From: Corynebacterium appendicis CIP 107643
GTDB lineage: Bacteria; Actinomycetota; Actinomycetes; Mycobacteriales; Mycobacteriaceae
NCBI RefSeq assembly: GCF_030408415.1
Contig: NZ_CP046976.1
Location: 744,001-808,000, forward strand
Reading direction: 5' to 3'
DNA length: 64,000 nucleotides
Shown here one piece after another: positions 3,201 through 11,683 of this stretch. A program made the translations under genes and the position numbers. Every line of letters begins with the position of its first letter. Position 1 is the first letter of the stretch. Below the pieces are notes generated by a model that searched no databases, was not told the origin of the DNA, and saw nothing but the letters and a program-made list of their open reading frames with translations.

Positions 3201-3890
3201 ATGCGCGGCGCAGGCAACGTCCTCGGTGCGGAGCAGTCCGGCCACATCGCGGGCGTCGGATTCGACATGTATGTCCGCCTCGTCGGTGAGGCGGTGGAGA
3301 CCTACAAGGCGCTCATGTCCGGCGAGGTCGTCGACGCCACCGACCAAGGCCCGAAGGAGATCCGCATTGACCTGCCCGTCGACGCCCACATCCCCGAGTC
3401 CTACATCAACTCCGAGCGCCTCCGCCTGGAGAGCTACCGGAAGCTCGCCGCCGCCCGCGACGACGCCGAACTCGCCCACGTCTCCGACGAGCTCGTCGAC
3501 CGCTTCGGCGAGATGCCCGAGGAGGTCCAGCGCCTGTTCGCCGTCGCACGCCTGCGCCACCAGGCGCGCCGCGCCGGCGTCGCCGACATCACCATGCAGG
3601 GCACCCGCCTCAAATTCCACCCGGTGGACATGCCCGACTCCAAGCAGGTGCGCCTCAAGCGCCTCCACCCGGGATCCAATTACCGCGCCGCCGCCAAGGC
3701 CGTCCAGGTGCCGTTCCCGCGCGAAGGCGGAGCCAAGAAGGCACTCAACGCGCCCAACCTGCGTGATGAGGAGCTGCTGCAGTGGATCGCGGATTTCTTG
3801 AGCGGGATGTTCGACGTGGAGGAGATCGACGTGCGGGGAGCGGGCGCAGATAAGCCTGCGAAAAAGCGCGTCTTTTCCGTCAGCGAGTAG
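246..3890 (+). CDS. mfd: Transcription-repair coupling factor Mfd
   Basis: Superfamily 2 translocase that removes RNA polymerase stalled at DNA lesions and recruits UvrA to the template strand. The 1214-residue product has the full Mfd layout: UvrB-like N-terminal domains, an RNA-polymerase-interacting CarD-like domain near residue 505 (YVVHDTHGIGRF), a Walker A at about 660 (VGDVGFGKTEVA), a DEEQ box near 762 (VVDEEQRFG), motif VI with QLRGRVGRS, and the C-terminal TRCF domain from about 1040. The reading frame stays open upstream through the tRNA, but ATG 246 is preferred because CCAGGGGG lies just before it. Full length for the family. Confidence 0.98.
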   Translation: MADQPQNVPMLAGVLTQAMTDPKLKGLRKRVGEPSLHVTGIDQVRLWATATIARETPVLLVTATGHEAEDLAAELGALLGAEKVALMPAYETLPHERLSPAADIVGRRNKVLHDLAGMSVVVASARATCQPVLPAVEPVVIEHGEEYDFEELTASLASFAYDHVDMVSGRGEFATRGGIIDVFPTTAEHPVRIEFWGDEVTDLRTFAVADQRTIDDIARVELHPARQLLIDDAVQSAAASLAEVHPGNRTLVELLTRISDGSYADGMEALVPALTKSSYSVLPELMPAGSVVLVTSPEKVRTRISDLQATDHEFLEAGWEAAAMGADGPVAAEGLDVSASSYRSFESLEVSAREAGNAWWTFAPPGMFAAEEDDSATLPLEFEPAPAPKGDPKQIEALYGQVKMHLQNGGRAAFAAPAKGTVDRMAERLRENGISARVATPGLEPVDGQVTLYQALSHAGLTFPGPGLVVFTETDVTGNRVGDIAGAKRRAPRRRNRVDPLALKPGDYVVHDTHGIGRFVKMAERTIGTGDDSSRREYIVLEYQPAKRGQPADQLWVPMESLDLLSKYSGGEQPSLSKMGGSDWKNTKKKARAAVREIAGELVQLYAKRASAPGHAFAEDSPWQIEMEDNFPFVETEDQMAAIEAVKTDMEKPTPMDRVIVGDVGFGKTEVAVRAAFKAVQDGKQVAVLVPTTLLAQQHFSTFTQRMDGFGVEIRELSRFTSAVDAKKIMAGLADGSVDIVVGTHRLLQTGVQWKNLGLIVVDEEQRFGVEHKEHIKALKSHVDVLTMTATPIPRTLEMSLTGIREMTSITTPPEDRHPVLTYVGPQEDKQVAASIRRELLRDGQVFYIHNKVSDIEKTARHLRTLVPEARIVVAHGQMGEQLLEQTVQGFWNRDFDVLVCTTIVETGLDIANANTLIVENAQNMGLSQLHQLRGRVGRSRERGYAYFLYPKDKVLTETSYDRLATIAQNNDLGAGIAVAQRDLEMRGAGNVLGAEQSGHIAGVGFDMYVRLVGEAVETYKALMSGEVVDATDQGPKEIRIDLPVDAHIPESYINSERLRLESYRKLAAARDDAELAHVSDELVDRFGEMPEEVQRLFAVARLRHQARRAGVADITMQGTRLKFHPVDMPDSKQVRLKRLHPGSNYRAAAKAVQVPFPREGGAKKALNAPNLRDEELLQWIADFLSGMFDVEEIDVRGAGADKPAKKRVFSVSE

Positions 3891-3916
3891 TTGTCCACGG
3901 TGTGGGCAACGTCTCT

Positions 3917-3947
3917 GCCCGTAGTTTCATTTACAAGCTACGGGGGC
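3917..3947 (+). terminator. Hairpin after mfd, possible terminator
   Basis: CCCGTAG (3918-3924) pairs with CTACGGG (3938-3944) across a 13-base loop, 27 bp after the mfd stop. It is followed by GGCAAAAGG rather than a T-run, so its strength as an intrinsic terminator is doubtful. It marks the left edge of the AT-rich insert. Confidence 0.4.
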
Positions 3948-3999
3948 AAAAGGACGGTTCTTCAGTTAAAAATAATGCAGCGCCTGTAATCTCTCGGAC

Positions 4000-5133
4000 A
4001 TGTATGTGCTGTGCGTAGCGCCTGTTCGAGAAAATGAGCTCTACTCAGTGGAGAATCGAAATATTCTCTTCGGAGTGAACTCCACTACCGGATTTGTGAG
4101 TAGGAACCAAGAAAATTCCAATTTAACGTTTGCGTCTCGCGCTTCGGTTGTGGTCTCGCAGCGTGTGGTTAGGACTCTGGGAAGTAAATTTAGTTCTTTC
4201 GAAGTCAAGAGAGTGGATCGCTACGACCACTACGGGATGGCATTTCTCGTAGGGTGGCTGAAAGTCACTTCCCCAAGCAAATTATCGCCTGCAAATATTG
4301 CTCACTTCGAAGAAGAGACGACGGATTTTTTCAATCTGGTGAGCACCATGTACCTGGGCGAGAGAAGCGTTCGATGGGTGAATAGGACTCTCCTTTTAGA
4401 AGAAGAAGAGTCTTGTCCGCATATGTGGTTCCAGGATGACCGTCGTCAGATTGCCGAACTGGTTGATGGAAGCACATTCCACGGTGCATGGGGGAACAAC
4501 CTCTATGAGAACTCTTCCGGTTCTGGCCAGGCTAAGATAATGCACCCAATTCTCCATGCACAGTACATCTGGTGTTTCCTCGCTGATGTCGAGAGCGCCT
4601 CAATCTCGTACCTGGCTCTGCTGCATTCCACCACCGCCATTAAGAGTGACCTTCTGCATGGCGTGATTTCTCTTCATTATGAGCTCGCTATGGTTTCGTT
4701 TATGAGAGAACGGACTAGAATTGAGGATCGACCCGATTTTAGAGCTGTGGTGGACGCGATTTTGGAGTCCTGGAACTTCGGCGAAGTTCTGCGGGGCGTA
4801 GACAGAAGGCTCGAACGACTGGAGCATATTGCCGGTGGTCGTTCAGAGCTACTCCAGCGTGAGCAAAGTAGGAGGATGGACTGGATACTTTTCGTCCTCG
4901 CAGGCACGACGCTGATTTCCCTCTGCCTTGATTTTATCCAGACTGCTTACTCCGAAACCCAGGACGGTGCGCGCCCTGAAGGCTGGATAATGCGATTCTT
5001 TCTCGAGACAGGGGCATCGTCAATCGTCATGGTCTCGGCCTTAATCACACTGTTGCTGGTTTTTTCCCTCTTAGGTTTTTCATCGTGGAGTAGGCGTACT
5101 TGGAAGGGTACAAACGATGTTTCGCGTTTCTGA
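4000..5133 (+). CDS. Unknown protein with soluble domain and two C-terminal membrane helices
   Basis: 377 residues. I do not recognise a catalytic domain. A mixed soluble region spans roughly residues 1-240, with a Trp/His-rich centre (HMWFQDD, HPILHAQYIW). A charged helix follows at about 250-292 (VVDAILESWNFGEVLRG, RRLERLEHIAGG), then a hydrophobic segment at 294-313, a short loop and a second at 340-362, with a basic tail. A long helix leading into a two-helix C-terminus is the topology of CorA/RMD1-type proteins, but no GMN motif is present, so that is only a resemblance. The region is visibly richer in A+T than its neighbours and the next gene overlaps the 3' end by 17 bp, so the two are probably one transferred operon. 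No strong ribosome binding site is seen before ATG 4000; TAAAAATAAT upstream could hold a -10. Confidence 0.75.
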   Translation: MYVLCVAPVRENELYSVENRNILFGVNSTTGFVSRNQENSNLTFASRASVVVSQRVVRTLGSKFSSFEVKRVDRYDHYGMAFLVGWLKVTSPSKLSPANIAHFEEETTDFFNLVSTMYLGERSVRWVNRTLLLEEEESCPHMWFQDDRRQIAELVDGSTFHGAWGNNLYENSSGSGQAKIMHPILHAQYIWCFLADVESASISYLALLHSTTAIKSDLLHGVISLHYELAMVSFMRERTRIEDRPDFRAVVDAILESWNFGEVLRGVDRRLERLEHIAGGRSELLQREQSRRMDWILFVLAGTTLISLCLDFIQTAYSETQDGARPEGWIMRFFLETGASSIVMVSALITLLLVFSLLGFSSWSRRTWKGTNDVSRF

Positions 5134-6232
5134 TGTATCACAGTGGGTACTTTCCGGTCATTTGGGCACACGCTTGACTGAAAAACGGGAAGTTATTGAA
5201 CAACAGAGGGAACAGGTTGATCGGTATCTCGAAACAGGAGGAGTCGCCTATGGTTTCACAACGCTCTTTGGACATTTAGACGCCTTCGCAACGAGTCCCA
5301 GCGCACTACTTCTCGAAGGACATACGGTCGGAAGACCAAGCCCAATAACTCAGGATCTATTCAGATCCATTCTTGCAGTCAAGCTCTGCCAACTGTCGAA
5401 TGGCGGATCTGGGATTTCGCCTGAAACTTTCGATCTCTTGATAGAAACCTTTCAGACCCCCCCGACTAACGTGGAAATTGATTTGGAGGCCTCGTACGGC
5501 TGTGGAGATGTCGTACCTGGCGCATGGTTGGCAAAATCGCTTTTCGAAAGTGAACCAGATCTACGCGCAGGGGATCTAATGTGCCTAATGAATGGCTCGT
5601 ATTTTGGTGCTGGAGTCGCTCTTCATACTAACTCTGAAATGCGTGATCTATTCGAAGAAGCTTGGGAGACGCTCAACGCGGCTAGGGAAACCGCTCTTGC
5701 CGTTCAAGGAGATTCGACAGTTCAATTGCCGGTCTCCTTGAGAGACCTCCAACCTCTTCGAATCGTGATCGACAGGGCGGAAAAGAATCTTCAGATAGCT
5801 TTAGAACACAGCCTTAACGCTAACAGTGGAAACCCGTTGTTCGAGTTTGAGAGAGGAACCGCGAAGCCGGTTAGTAATTCAAGCTTTCTCGACTTTCAGC
5901 TCTCGTTGTCTTTGAATGAGACTACAGAGACCTGCAAGGTGGTTTCGTCGTACCTAGTTGGTGCTACTCGATGGTTAGATCATTTAGCTGAGGCCACTCT
6001 CGCGGACGAGGCGAAACCACTTTCGGTTCAATTTCCCAAAATTTCCAAAGCCTACCACGACACAATTGTGGCATCTTCGGGCAATGCGAGCTACGCGCAA
6101 GCTGAGTCGCGTGACATAGAAGACGTTTCCGACAGTTCTTTAATTCGTGCCCTTAAGTTGAAGCGTTTTTTGGGTCTTCTTTCCCACCAGATCGGCTTTT
6201 TGACATCTATCCTTAAGCTCTTGGAAAATTGA
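5117..6232 (+). CDS. Divergent aromatic-amino-acid ammonia-lyase family protein (HAL/PAL-like)
   Basis: 371 residues, shorter than typical HAL (about 510). Collinear signatures of the family are visible: VAYGFTTLFG at 43-52 with Tyr45 at the place of the catalytic tyrosine (HAL: AYGINTGFG); LLLEGHTVGRPSP (64-76) for the usual SHxxGxG region; NGGSG (95-99); ASYGCGDVVPGAWLA (125-139) for SVGASGDLAPLA; LMNGSY (157-162) for LLNGT; SLRDLQP (207-213) for the YSLRCQPQ arginine loop; NSGNPLF (236-242) for SDNPLVF. The MIO-forming Ala-Ser-Gly is Gly-Cys-Gly (128-130), and the tyrosine of the YSLR loop is Val206. The C-terminal extension of eukaryotic PAL is absent. The start overlaps the upstream gene, with GGAAGGG before it. 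The substrate is unknown; the protein could be an enzyme or a repurposed fold. Confidence 0.72.
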   Translation: MFRVSDVSQWVLSGHLGTRLTEKREVIEQQREQVDRYLETGGVAYGFTTLFGHLDAFATSPSALLLEGHTVGRPSPITQDLFRSILAVKLCQLSNGGSGISPETFDLLIETFQTPPTNVEIDLEASYGCGDVVPGAWLAKSLFESEPDLRAGDLMCLMNGSYFGAGVALHTNSEMRDLFEEAWETLNAARETALAVQGDSTVQLPVSLRDLQPLRIVIDRAEKNLQIALEHSLNANSGNPLFEFERGTAKPVSNSSFLDFQLSLSLNETTETCKVVSSYLVGATRWLDHLAEATLADEAKPLSVQFPKISKAYHDTIVASSGNASYAQAESRDIEDVSDSSLIRALKLKRFLGLLSHQIGFLTSILKLLEN

Positions 6233-6252
6233 GGGCAACGACTCGAGAATCC

Positions 6253-6891
6253 TTAACCGGATAGGAATAGTGGCATGACCAACAACATTGTCGTGCTCCA
6301 CGTCAGGTGCACGGCGATGGGGGAGTAGAGACGTCCGCTCCGTGAAGCCTCGTAGAAGCACACCGCGCCGAGCACGCCCGCCGCGAAAACGAGCAACGGC
6401 ACGCCCATCGCGACGGTGACAGCGCAGTAGATCAGCGTGGACACGACCCCCACACCGAGCTCTGTGAACCGTCCCCGAAGTTGTCTGGGCACCGCGTCGC
6501 GGTAGATGAGCTCCTCGCCGATGCCGTTGATCACGAGCACCGCGAGCGTGGGCGCCAGGCCACCTTGATCCGGGGTGTCCAGCAATTGCGCGACGGGTCC
6601 CGCCAGGAACGGAATTCGCGCGACCACGAGGGCACCGGCGACGAACACCACCGCCAGCGCCGCGCCGAGCAGGACACCGCGGAGAATTTGGGGCGCAACA
6701 CTGGGCCCGGAAAACGCGTCGCGCGAGCCCCAGAACCACCAGCCCGCGGCGTAGACGCAGGCGGTGAACACGGTGAAGGCGTAAAAGCCGACGGAACCAT
6801 CGCCGGCCTGCCGCGCGGCGAACAACCCCAGCGCGCCCACCACGCACGGCAGCAGGAACCACCAGGAAGAAGTCGTTGATGTCTGAGTCAT
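6253..6891 (-). CDS. CPBP-family intramembrane metalloprotease (CAAX protease-like)
   Basis: 212 residues, mostly membrane helices. The family motif is visible as GIGEELIYRDAVPRQLRGRF, containing the paired glutamates and Arg of EExxxR; a later histidine in the IAVHLTWS segment supplies the second metal-binding element. Members are homologous to eukaryotic Rce1 and, in bacteria, act in maturation or immunity of peptides or remain uncharacterised. ATG 6891 is chosen because GGGGG lies just upstream; the frame stays open far upstream, antisense to the next gene. It is divergently oriented from the gene at 6953. Confidence 0.85.
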   Translation of the reverse strand: MTQTSTTSSWWFLLPCVVGALGLFAARQAGDGSVGFYAFTVFTACVYAAGWWFWGSRDAFSGPSVAPQILRGVLLGAALAVVFVAGALVVARIPFLAGPVAQLLDTPDQGGLAPTLAVLVINGIGEELIYRDAVPRQLRGRFTELGVGVVSTLIYCAVTVAMGVPLLVFAAGVLGAVCFYEASRSGRLYSPIAVHLTWSTTMLLVMPLFLSG

Positions 6892-8442: not shown

Positions 8443-9429
8443 TCAGCGTGCGGGGTCAATGACATGGACGGCCAGTGGCGCTGTCGTGAGGCGGTACGCG
8501 CCGGGGGCGGTGTCGAGGACCGCCAGGAATTCGTGGCGCAGCGCCCGGTCGACGCTCACCGACAAGTGCGGGCCGGGATCAGGATCGTCGCCGTATTCGA
8601 CGCCGGGGGAGTCGGCGGGAACGAACCGTGCCCACGCGTCATCGCCGACGACAGCGAAGGGGCGTTCGTACCCCAGCCGCCACGTCATTGCGCGGAGCAG
8701 GTGCGGGGCGGCGTGGGTGGTCAGGTCGATGCGCCCCGATTCGTCGACCGCGAAATAGCTCGAGGCCACCGCCGCGACGGAGGAACCGTCCCTCTCGGTG
8801 AGGGAGGTCAGGGGTCGGGCGAAGGAGGCGTCGTTAAGCAATGAAGGGCGATCAAGCCGACCGAGGCCGAGTGGCAGCGTCTCCCCGAGCAAACCTGCGA
8901 ATTTGAGCGGGTCCCAGCGCAGGGCCGCATCGAGCTCGTCCGCGGTGACGGGCACCGCGTCGATAAAACTCAGCCGGCCCGTCGGCGCGCTGAGCGGCGG
9001 AACAAGCGGCTCGTTGACGAAGATGAAGCCAGACAACGACGCACCCTCCGCGACCGGCGCGCGTAGATCCATGTAATGGCCCGGCTCGATCGGGTTGCCC
9101 GACGCGCGTCGGTAGCGCGCAATGCGCCGCAGCTTATCCACGGCCCACCGTGCCGGCGCACCCACCGCCGGCGTGCGCAGCGTCATCTCGTCCTGCACCC
9201 CCGCGACGGGCGCCGACGAACGTGTGCTCGACAACCCGTACGTCACGAACAAATAATGAGGCACCGGCTCCTCGAAGCGGTAGACGAGCACCGCGATATC
9301 GTCCGTGAACGTCAACTCCCCGTGGACTTCTACCGGCGAGTGGCCTGAGAATTCTTCGAGGTGCTCGAGCAGGTAGTCGCCGCCCGTCGGCTTCGCCGCG
9401 CGCCCGAGAAAACCCCACCTTATGCCCAT
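8443..9429 (-). CDS. Suppressor-of-fused (SUFU) domain protein
   Basis: 328 residues. The N-terminal half reads like bacterial SUFU-domain proteins: a strand-rich block with HYLFVTYGLSSTRSS, PARWAVDKLRRIARY, then GHYMDLRAPV and LSGFIFVNEP, ending with the SFIDAVPVTADELDAALRW stretch typical of the domain's end. The C-terminal third is a separate module of unknown role. ATG 9429 is the first in-frame start. In eukaryotes SUFU regulates Hedgehog signalling; bacterial members are of unknown function and often sit near immunity or toxin genes, which I do not see here. Confidence 0.7.
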   Translation of the reverse strand: MGIRWGFLGRAAKPTGGDYLLEHLEEFSGHSPVEVHGELTFTDDIAVLVYRFEEPVPHYLFVTYGLSSTRSSAPVAGVQDEMTLRTPAVGAPARWAVDKLRRIARYRRASGNPIEPGHYMDLRAPVAEGASLSGFIFVNEPLVPPLSAPTGRLSFIDAVPVTADELDAALRWDPLKFAGLLGETLPLGLGRLDRPSLLNDASFARPLTSLTERDGSSVAAVASSYFAVDESGRIDLTTHAAPHLLRAMTWRLGYERPFAVVGDDAWARFVPADSPGVEYGDDPDPGPHLSVSVDRALRHEFLAVLDTAPGAYRLTTAPLAVHVIDPAR

Positions 9430-10518: not shown

Positions 10519-10555
10519 CTGTGGATAAGTCTGTTTGTGGGTGGGTTATCCACAG
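10519..10555. repeat. Inverted pair of perfect DnaA-box sequences
   Basis: CTGTGGATAA (10519-10528) and TTATCCACAG (10546-10555) form a perfect 10-bp inverted repeat around 17 bp. Each arm contains the canonical DnaA box TTATCCACA on one strand. The pair lies 52 bp before the HNH gene in a T-rich spacer, so it could be an operator for that gene, a DnaA titration or regulatory site, or a recombination-associated motif. Confidence 0.75.
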
Positions 10556-10606
10556 ATTTTTAGGGGCTTCTTTTTCGGGGTTGTTGTTCTGTTTAGCGTG
10601 TGGGGC

Positions 10607-11683
10607 ATGAGCGATTTTGACGCGTTTCTTGGATCACTTGGTAGCCCGATGGATGTCCTGGCTGGTTTTGACCGTCAGGCTGCTCGTGCTGCCGGCGTCA
10701 AGCCCACCTCGTATGTCGAGTGGGAGAAGGCCCACGAGGTCTACTTCGGTGCGACCCGGTTTCGCCGCCAGCAAGCTCACGCCGTGACCGTTGCTAGGCA
10801 GACGGGGAAGTCTCTGGATCAGATTCTGTTCATTGAGCAGCAAATGCGCGCTGTGTCCTCCGACCGGGAGACATGGAAACTCCGCCTGGCCCTGCTATCG
10901 GTGCGCGGCGACTACAAGACGCTGCAGCGCCGCGCCAAAGACATCATCCCCGACCCGGACGCCGATACACCCGCCGCGGAGTCCACGGTGCGGTTTGGCC
11001 GGACCCGGAAAGGCAAACGCACGGTCATCGCCACCGGTGAAGAACGCGACATCGCCGACCTGGAACACGCCCTGCGGAAGGGGCTCGACCCCAACCGGCC
11101 TGAGGGCCCGCAAATGTACGAAGCCTTCACGGAGCTGCTGCGCGGCGGTGCCGGTGTCGCGCAGGCTGTGCCGCGTCCGTTGATCCAGGTCCCGCTTTCC
11201 GAGCACACCAGGATCCTCGCCGGCGAGGGGGATGAGACGATCCTGGGGTTGTCGGACGGCACCACCATGACTGGTGCGGAGTATCTGACTCACTATTACT
11301 CGAAGGATTTGGAGGTGGCGTTGTTCCACCCGCAGGCGGGTGCGGTGAACCTGTACCACGCGAAGCGGTTCGCCAACGCCAAGCAACGCGATCTGGCGCG
11401 GGCGACGCTGACGACGTGTCCGGTGCCGGATTGTAGGCATGCGGCGGATAATTGCGAGGTCCACCACATCACACCGTGGGCGCGTGGCGGGCCGACGAAC
11501 ATGGACAACCTGTCGGTGTTGTGCAGGTACCACAACCGCACCAACGACGACGACCCCGACAGACACCACCGGGGTCGAATACACATGCGCAACGGCACCC
11601 CGACATGGGTCTCCCCGCGCGGAACACCAGTCCCGAACACCACCCACCAATACGGTGCCATGCACCTACTATTCGGAAAATAG
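10607..11683 (+). CDS. HNH endonuclease domain protein (actinobacterial 13E12/DUF222-type)
   Basis: 358 residues. The C-terminal nuclease runs from CPVPDCRHAADNCEVHHI to LSVLCRYHNRTNDDD: two zinc Cys pairs (CxxxxC and the LCxxH element) around the HH of the beta-beta-alpha-metal core. The N-terminal 240 residues are the helical region usual in actinobacterial DUF222/13E12 proteins, which are multicopy in many corynebacteria and mycobacteria and of uncertain function. ATG 10607 (MSDFDAFLG) is chosen over an upstream in-frame GTG because that would run through the DnaA-box repeat. Confidence 0.85.
   Translation: MSDFDAFLGSLGSPMDVLAGFDRQAARAAGVKPTSYVEWEKAHEVYFGATRFRRQQAHAVTVARQTGKSLDQILFIEQQMRAVSSDRETWKLRLALLSVRGDYKTLQRRAKDIIPDPDADTPAAESTVRFGRTRKGKRTVIATGEERDIADLEHALRKGLDPNRPEGPQMYEAFTELLRGGAGVAQAVPRPLIQVPLSEHTRILAGEGDETILGLSDGTTMTGAEYLTHYYSKDLEVALFHPQAGAVNLYHAKRFANAKQRDLARATLTTCPVPDCRHAADNCEVHHITPWARGGPTNMDNLSVLCRYHNRTNDDDPDRHHRGRIHMRNGTPTWVSPRGTPVPNTTHQYGAMHLLFGK

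Follow-up and report, generated by a model that had tools for sequence, protein, structure and literature searches.

The MIO ammonia-lyases and aminomutases have roles in amino-acid breakdown and in natural products, and a histidine ammonia-lyase (HAL) in which Cys replaces the MIO Ser retains activity. For GkHAL, a HAL from Geobacillus, one paper describes Tyr, His, Asn and Glu as essential, reports that changes of Gln, Arg and Phe reduce efficiency, and states that Tyr277 is thought to assist the catalytic Glu (PMC11432326).

A second point of comparison is offered by the CRISPR CorA effectors. As two papers describe, a phosphodiesterase that breaks down the ligand lies beside these effectors or is fused with them, with a lyase in its stead in one species; the ligand is SAM-AMP, and immunity required both the effector and its partner enzyme (PMC10600005; PMC12255297). 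The SAM-AMP lyase is placed in the PII superfamily (PMC12255297), and the effector is reported to be toxic in the absence of both ligand synthesis and its partner (PMC10600005). In the open-access literature we found no paper that pairs an MIO-lyase-like protein with a membrane protein such as the one described here.

Locus, insertion sites and distribution

The window, by which we mean the whole 64-kb stretch of DNA that was analysed, comes from a genome of 2.28 Mb in one contig. In it, two plus-strand genes lie between mfd, which ends at 3890, and a convergent gene on their 3′ side for an Rce1-like (CPBP) protease (Pfam PF02517). ORF1 (4000-5133, 377 aa) encodes a soluble domain, a charged stretch and two predicted C-terminal membrane helices, and ORF2 (5117-6232, 371 aa) encodes a compact homologue of the MIO ammonia-lyases. 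The original prediction of two overlapping genes after mfd was thus correct: the overlap is 17 nt, and a ribosome-site-like GGAAGGG for ORF2 lies inside ORF1 (5102-5108, plus strand), ending 8 nt upstream of the ORF2 ATG. The terminator-like hairpin 3′ of mfd (3901..3923, plus strand) is weak, there being two such sites in the region against 3.6 expected from shuffles. Elsewhere in the window, a structured-RNA search found two tRNAs at gathering scores, and the genes include one for a SUFU-domain (Suppressor-of-fused) protein at 8446-9429 on the minus strand (Pfam E 1.1e-17) and one for an HNH endonuclease-domain protein at 10535-11683 on the plus strand; HNH-domain proteins of such a kind often occur as repeated copies in actinobacteria.

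The segment that separates mfd from the protease gene bears the marks of an insertion. Measured from the mfd stop codon to the end of the converging protease gene, it spans 2372 bp (3891..6262), whereas in the relative L067 only 8 bp separate the two genes, the next matched base being 6263; the mfd end of L067 is 90.5% identical to the window over 1091 bases. Between aligned ends, the gap is about 9 bp in L068 and about 250 bp in L069. Of 19 relative loci, seven entered this comparison; mfd lies beside the protease gene in three of them, and the mfd match is absent from the locus in the other four. A search of the window insertion for a target duplication or terminal repeats gave none that was convincing. 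A second site tells the same story: in the Corynebacterium genome G172 the pair holds ugd and dcd apart by about 2.6 kb, whereas of 19 other loci, drawn from the 46 other genomes in which dcd has a match, 14 carry a ugd-like gene (49-72% identical) next to dcd, in 13 cases within 100 bp. The insertion sites with empty relatives are therefore two, both in Corynebacterium.

Both genes were present at all four loci found, three in Corynebacterium and one in Actinotalea ferrariae, where the pair sits between an aconitase-like gene (by eye) and a DUF1801 gene. The genes are closely coupled throughout, with junctions of -17, +5, -1 and -4 nt (the start codon in L002 being our choice), and at the three loci where both flanks can be read the unit leaves no space for a third gene; in L024 the contig begins just upstream of the pair. 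Relatives of ORF1 occur in 3 of 242 Corynebacterium genomes, the window's genome counted, and strong relatives of ORF2 (E 3e-40 or better) are confined to the same three; the chance of this overlap is 4e-7 on the assumption of independent genomes, which is not strictly true. The other 35 Corynebacterium matches to ORF2 (E 1e-5 to 1e-3) cover the N-terminal part only, and the 17 examined as loci are full-length lyases with 458-481 residues from the catalytic Tyr. When the genome-contig collection was scanned with a pattern, 39 stretches came up, three of which encode a relative (two from Corynebacterium, one from Actinotalea ferrariae).

Further afield, among 216 genomes sampled from the class, with up to 8 candidates scored per genome, an ORF1 profile found the window only. 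A three-member ORF2 profile matched many lyases in samples of the order (397 genomes) and the phylum (396 genomes), the best E outside the window being, among the matches listed, 2.6e-15 and 3.9e-14, respectively. Absence from these two samples is weak evidence, since genomes G205 and G172 are themselves missing from the listed matches and up to 4 candidates were scored per genome. The 38 order and phylum loci (L028-L065) include 36 with the search motif; L048 was read individually and L032 was left out. Of these 36, three (L050, L064 and L065) run past the locus end, L065 comprising just 177 residues, and the remaining order and phylum matches were judged solely on score and open-frame length. 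In total, the genome searches made 1995 genome visits, many genomes being visited repeatedly.

Two simpler accounts were rejected. Chance open reading frames are ruled out by the homologues elsewhere and by the shared catalytic residues described below. Plasmid or viral cargo was dismissed: ORF2 matches 84 plasmid records, none of which reaches 80% query coverage, the best 20 of the 84 covering 37-62% with the annotated ones being hutH or histidine ammonia-lyase; ORF1 has no match among the plasmid records, and the viral contigs scanned yielded no relative of either protein.

Composition gives a mixed answer. The G+C content of the pair is 49.2%, whereas 1144 overlapping 2233-bp segments from the rest of the 64 kb average 64.2% (sd 1.8%, minimum 59.7%), so the claim that its G+C lies below that of both flanks is borne out; third-position G+C is 0.55 in ORF1 and 0.47 in ORF2 against 0.88 in mfd. 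A contrast of this kind is seen in the three Corynebacterium copies, which have low G+C (0.48-0.56) in surroundings of 0.59-0.64, but not in the Actinotalea copy, in which the two genes (0.75 and 0.77) match their flanks (0.74 and 0.76). Because of this copy, low G+C is no fixed property of the unit.

Taken together, these observations support the view that ORF1 and ORF2 form a transferred two-gene unit that moves between bacterial chromosomes. The original prediction had suspected such a unit and had given as one possible refutation that the two genes never co-occur elsewhere; that objection fails, because the pair is together at four of the four loci found and because two of the Corynebacterium insertion sites are empty in relatives.

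Small, mobile and made up of two genes, one of them for an effector-like membrane protein, the unit is inserted at sites that differ among genomes and could be a dedicated anti-phage defence of an undescribed kind, acting by abortive infection. Several negative results count against this account: no defence gene was recognised by eye in the flanks read, and no phage-triggered sensor was recognised; PADLOC-DB 2.0.0 gave no family for either window protein or for the four ORF1 members; no PHROG matches an ORF1 member at E below 0.04; and scans of viral contigs with the proteins of the pair, and with a distant relative of ORF1 from genome G1079, returned no relative. We therefore consider a dedicated defence unlikely.

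The compact lyase homologue ORF2

ORF2 of the window matches Pfam PF00221 (Lyase_aromatic) with E 3.3e-15 and 56.2 bits against a cut-off of 27.3, over residues 22-142 only. All four ORF2 members match this family (best E 2.4e-18), and a four-member profile matches the HAL structure 1gkj at 7.2e-16. From the catalytic Tyr to the C-terminal end the ORF2 members have 327-390 residues, whereas the other lyases measured have at least 447 (L065, where the contig ends, being omitted). By profile, ORF2 is a member of the MIO ammonia-lyase family, and within it belongs to a compact, separate clade, in agreement with the description of a compact HAL/PAL-family protein in the original prediction.

The catalytic site was compared in an alignment of the four members with 53 other lyase-like proteins, L032 and L065 being absent. 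Although the ORF2 members share an overall identity of only 28-37%, Tyr45, His69, Asn159, Gln203, Arg209, Phe257 and Glu335 are identical in all four, and the same residues are found in 53 of the 53 other proteins, except for Asn (52 of 53). We equate these residues with those of the GkHAL active site by motif and through the numbering of P. putida HAL, GkHAL itself lying outside the alignment. That seven such residues are retained would be difficult to account for unless chemistry or ligand binding were under selection.

Other parts of the site have changed. At the position of the MIO-forming Ala/Cys-Ser-Gly, the alignment places Gly-Cys-Gly in the window (5498..5506, plus strand, ORF2 codons 128-130) and Gly-Ser-Gly in the three other members, so that the cofactor tripeptide Ala-Ser-Gly or Cys-Ser-Gly is missing from all four; among the 53 other lyases the first position of the tripeptide is Cys in 37, Ala in 15 and a gap in one. 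Directly before the tripeptide, Tyr replaces Gly in the ORF2 clade, gap placement there being uncertain. Val occupies the position equivalent to Tyr277 of GkHAL in four of four members, against Tyr in 52 of 53 others, and the Ser/His substrate motif reads Gly-His, Ala-His or Asn-His rather than Ser-His. Given the Val in all four members and the altered tripeptide, both the cofactor and the activity of ORF2 may have been lost. As an observation on the wider family, a tripeptide that starts with Cys in place of Ala is found in lyase loci of Corynebacterium and related genomes (L005, L011, L015 and others).

In the tree of the same proteins, the four ORF2 members form a single clade with support 1.0 and a long stem. 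Ordinary HutH is ruled out for ORF2 by length, motif and tree, and the window protein scores 40.1 bits against the NCBIfam HutH equivalog, for which the cut-off is 539.15. The nearest non-member is L048 (support 0.97), a placement that long branches may bias; L048 is in the tree but outside the member count. It is a 621-residue frame on the minus strand of genome G742 with Thr in the tripeptide, Val for the Tyr and Ser for the Asn, and around it are frames that resemble, by eye, cysteine dioxygenase and rhodanese.

A changed tripeptide and the loss of the Tyr in four of four members, together with the shorter C terminus, would also suit a pseudoenzyme, and hence a toxin-antitoxin-like pair in which ORF2 binds or restrains ORF1 directly, without chemistry. 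Genes that overlap or nearly do so, and a distribution as a pair only, fit such an arrangement, as does the reported toxicity of a CRISPR CorA effector deprived of ligand synthesis and partner enzyme (PMC10600005). What a pseudoenzyme leaves unexplained is the identity of the seven catalytic-site residues across members as divergent as these. We regard this account as possible, although on the unlikely side.

The membrane protein ORF1 and its distant relative

The original prediction described ORF1 as a soluble domain followed by two C-terminal membrane helices, and this architecture recurs. Hydropathy places the predicted helices at residues 295-313 (codons 4882..4938, plus strand) and 342-360 (5023..5079, plus strand), and, again by hydropathy only, two C-terminal hydrophobic segments are found in the three homologues and in one distant relative. 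The four ORF1 members share the motifs W-V/T-N-R-T and W-G-N-N, and a charged stretch, likely a helical stalk, precedes the helices. No family in Pfam, NCBIfam, PHROGs or PADLOC matches ORF1 at E <0.01; the weak matches are to DUF4229 (0.02), prfC (0.035), PHROG 23679 (0.043) and the TIGR02587 membrane protein (0.069). The objection that each gene belongs to a well-described separate family consequently applies in part to ORF2, which lies in a known fold family, if in a separate compact clade, and not to ORF1.

These results bear on a further alternative, a small metabolic module without a role in conflict, in which ORF2 would deaminate or isomerise a histidine-like amino acid and ORF1 would be its partner in uptake, export or anchoring. 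In its favour, the pocket Arg, Asn, Glu, Tyr and His are retained in ORF2, and the neighbours of the pairs resemble housekeeping or otherwise ordinary chromosomal genes (by eye, partly by Pfam). Against this stand a rare and patchy distribution (3 of 242 Corynebacterium genomes, and among the 216 of the class sample the window's own), a unit without pathway genes, and an ORF1 with no more than two membrane helices, for which no transporter family scores above its curated cut-off. A purely metabolic role appears doubtful to us.

The distant relative of ORF1 emerged when 221 genomes of the Actinotalea family were searched with a profile, up to 8 candidates being scored per genome; the matches were Actinotalea itself and, at E 3.4e-5, genome G1079. 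Here an ORF1-like module and a MurL-like domain lie in one open frame of 968 residues; the frame (L088:6609-9173) reads as the MurL-like domain, the ORF1-like soluble domain and two C-terminal membrane helices. The MurL-like domain matches at E 8.9e-30 with 103 bits, far below the equivalog cut-off of 700. A profile alignment of ORF1 with the G1079 module extends over 201 columns that include the W-V-x-R motif and reaches a score of 50.6, where the best of 60 shuffles gave 20.4. As the G1079 module is without a lyase, pairing with a lyase does not characterise the wider module. The match of L111 (G1204) to the G1079 relative, from a search with up to 10 candidates scored per genome, was read and dropped as unrelated.

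The G1079 relative also matches Pfam CorA, over the stalk and helix 1, at E 0.002 and 18 bits, where the cut-off is 27. The four ORF1 members have no match to Pfam CorA (PF01544), and the GMN motif is absent from the aligned loops of these members and of the G1079 relative. Against a CorA profile built from 11 of 14 GMN-bearing frames from 20 loci, a profile of ORF1 with the G1079 relative scores 24.9, the maximum of 80 column shuffles being 24.7, with the stalk and both helices in register; without that relative the score drops to 17.8, a value that falls among those of the shuffles (mean 15.8, maximum 24.0). Given a Pfam score below the cut-off, the lack of GMN, and profile comparisons that are marginal or null, we do not accept ORF1 as a member of the CorA family. 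A CorA-like membrane part of ORF1 is a marginal lead suggested by these comparisons, and no finding.

A possible effector and ligand-setting enzyme

Since the two-gene unit moves alone, its function must lie in the two proteins or draw on metabolites of the host. The most economical reading is that of a membrane effector joined to an enzyme that sets its ligand. We propose, by analogy and with a probability of roughly one in three, that the pair is a self-contained mobile module in which ORF2 would make or remove an amino-acid-like ligand of ORF1. ORF1 would be a membrane-anchored effector whose soluble domain, presumably cytoplasmic, senses a small ligand, and whose stalk and two helices would work on the membrane, probably by forming an oligomeric channel or pore. 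ORF2 would make or, more likely, remove this ligand, which could be an amino-acid-like compound held by the carboxylate-anchoring Arg and the pocket Asn, Glu and Tyr. If phage infection, stress or the loss of ORF2 shifted the balance, the level of the ligand would change and ORF1 would be triggered, so that the cell is harmed or arrested. The enzymatic activity of ORF2, the ligand, the topology, the channel action and any protective role are what we infer in this model. It draws on the co-occurrence and close coupling of the genes, the retained catalytic residues, the ORF1-like module that shares a frame with a MurL-like domain, the sub-threshold CorA match of that protein and the CRISPR CorA precedent. 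Against it count the lack of PADLOC matches and of recognised defence genes nearby, the weakness of the CorA link, the lyase-free G1079 module, the altered tripeptide and Val of ORF2, and the small number of pairs, four in all. Either protein, ORF1 or ORF2, may control its partner at the membrane.

A bolder version, which we offer as speculation and think improbable, is a new class of two-gene module for immunity or self-guarding, in which an MIO-type electrophilic enzyme, its electrophile perhaps derived from cysteine in the window copy, would set an amino-acid-derived signal that gates a two-helix effector. One and the same effector module would then serve beside amino-acid enzymes unrelated to each other, a MurL-like one in one genome and lyase-like ones in others.

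If ORF1 is indeed an effector, a two-helix membrane effector would be joined to a new kind of partner chemistry; and if ORF2 is active, it would be an MIO enzyme with a remodelled active site that is tied to a membrane protein, beyond the family roles outlined at the outset. As a two-gene unit of 2.4 kb, the pair is tractable to test.

How, then, does the pair compare with the systems already described? With the MIO lyases and aminomutases (PF00221), ORF2 shares homology over the N-terminal and middle regions as well as the seven catalytic residues, whereas those enzymes have a longer C terminus, Ala/Cys-Ser-Gly, the conserved Tyr and Ser in the Ser/His motif. The G1079 protein has in common with ORF1 a homologous module of soluble domain, stalk and two helices with W-V-x-R, and differs from the pair in that its enzyme part is MurL-like rather than lyase-like and lies within the same open frame. 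Like the present pair, the CRISPR CorA effector and its NrN or SAM-AMP lyase combine an N-terminal soluble domain and C-terminal helices with an adjoining enzyme that removes a small molecule and that may be a lyase (PMC10600005; PMC12255297). In contrast to that system, homology of ORF1 to CorA is not established and ORF2 is of the MIO family; among the open reading frames flanking the pairs, no cas10 or other CRISPR gene was recognised by eye. We claim no membership of the CRISPR CorA system for the pair and suggest, as an analogy, that it may work like the CorA and SAM-AMP-lyase pair, with ORF2 removing an amino-acid-like compound to which ORF1 responds.
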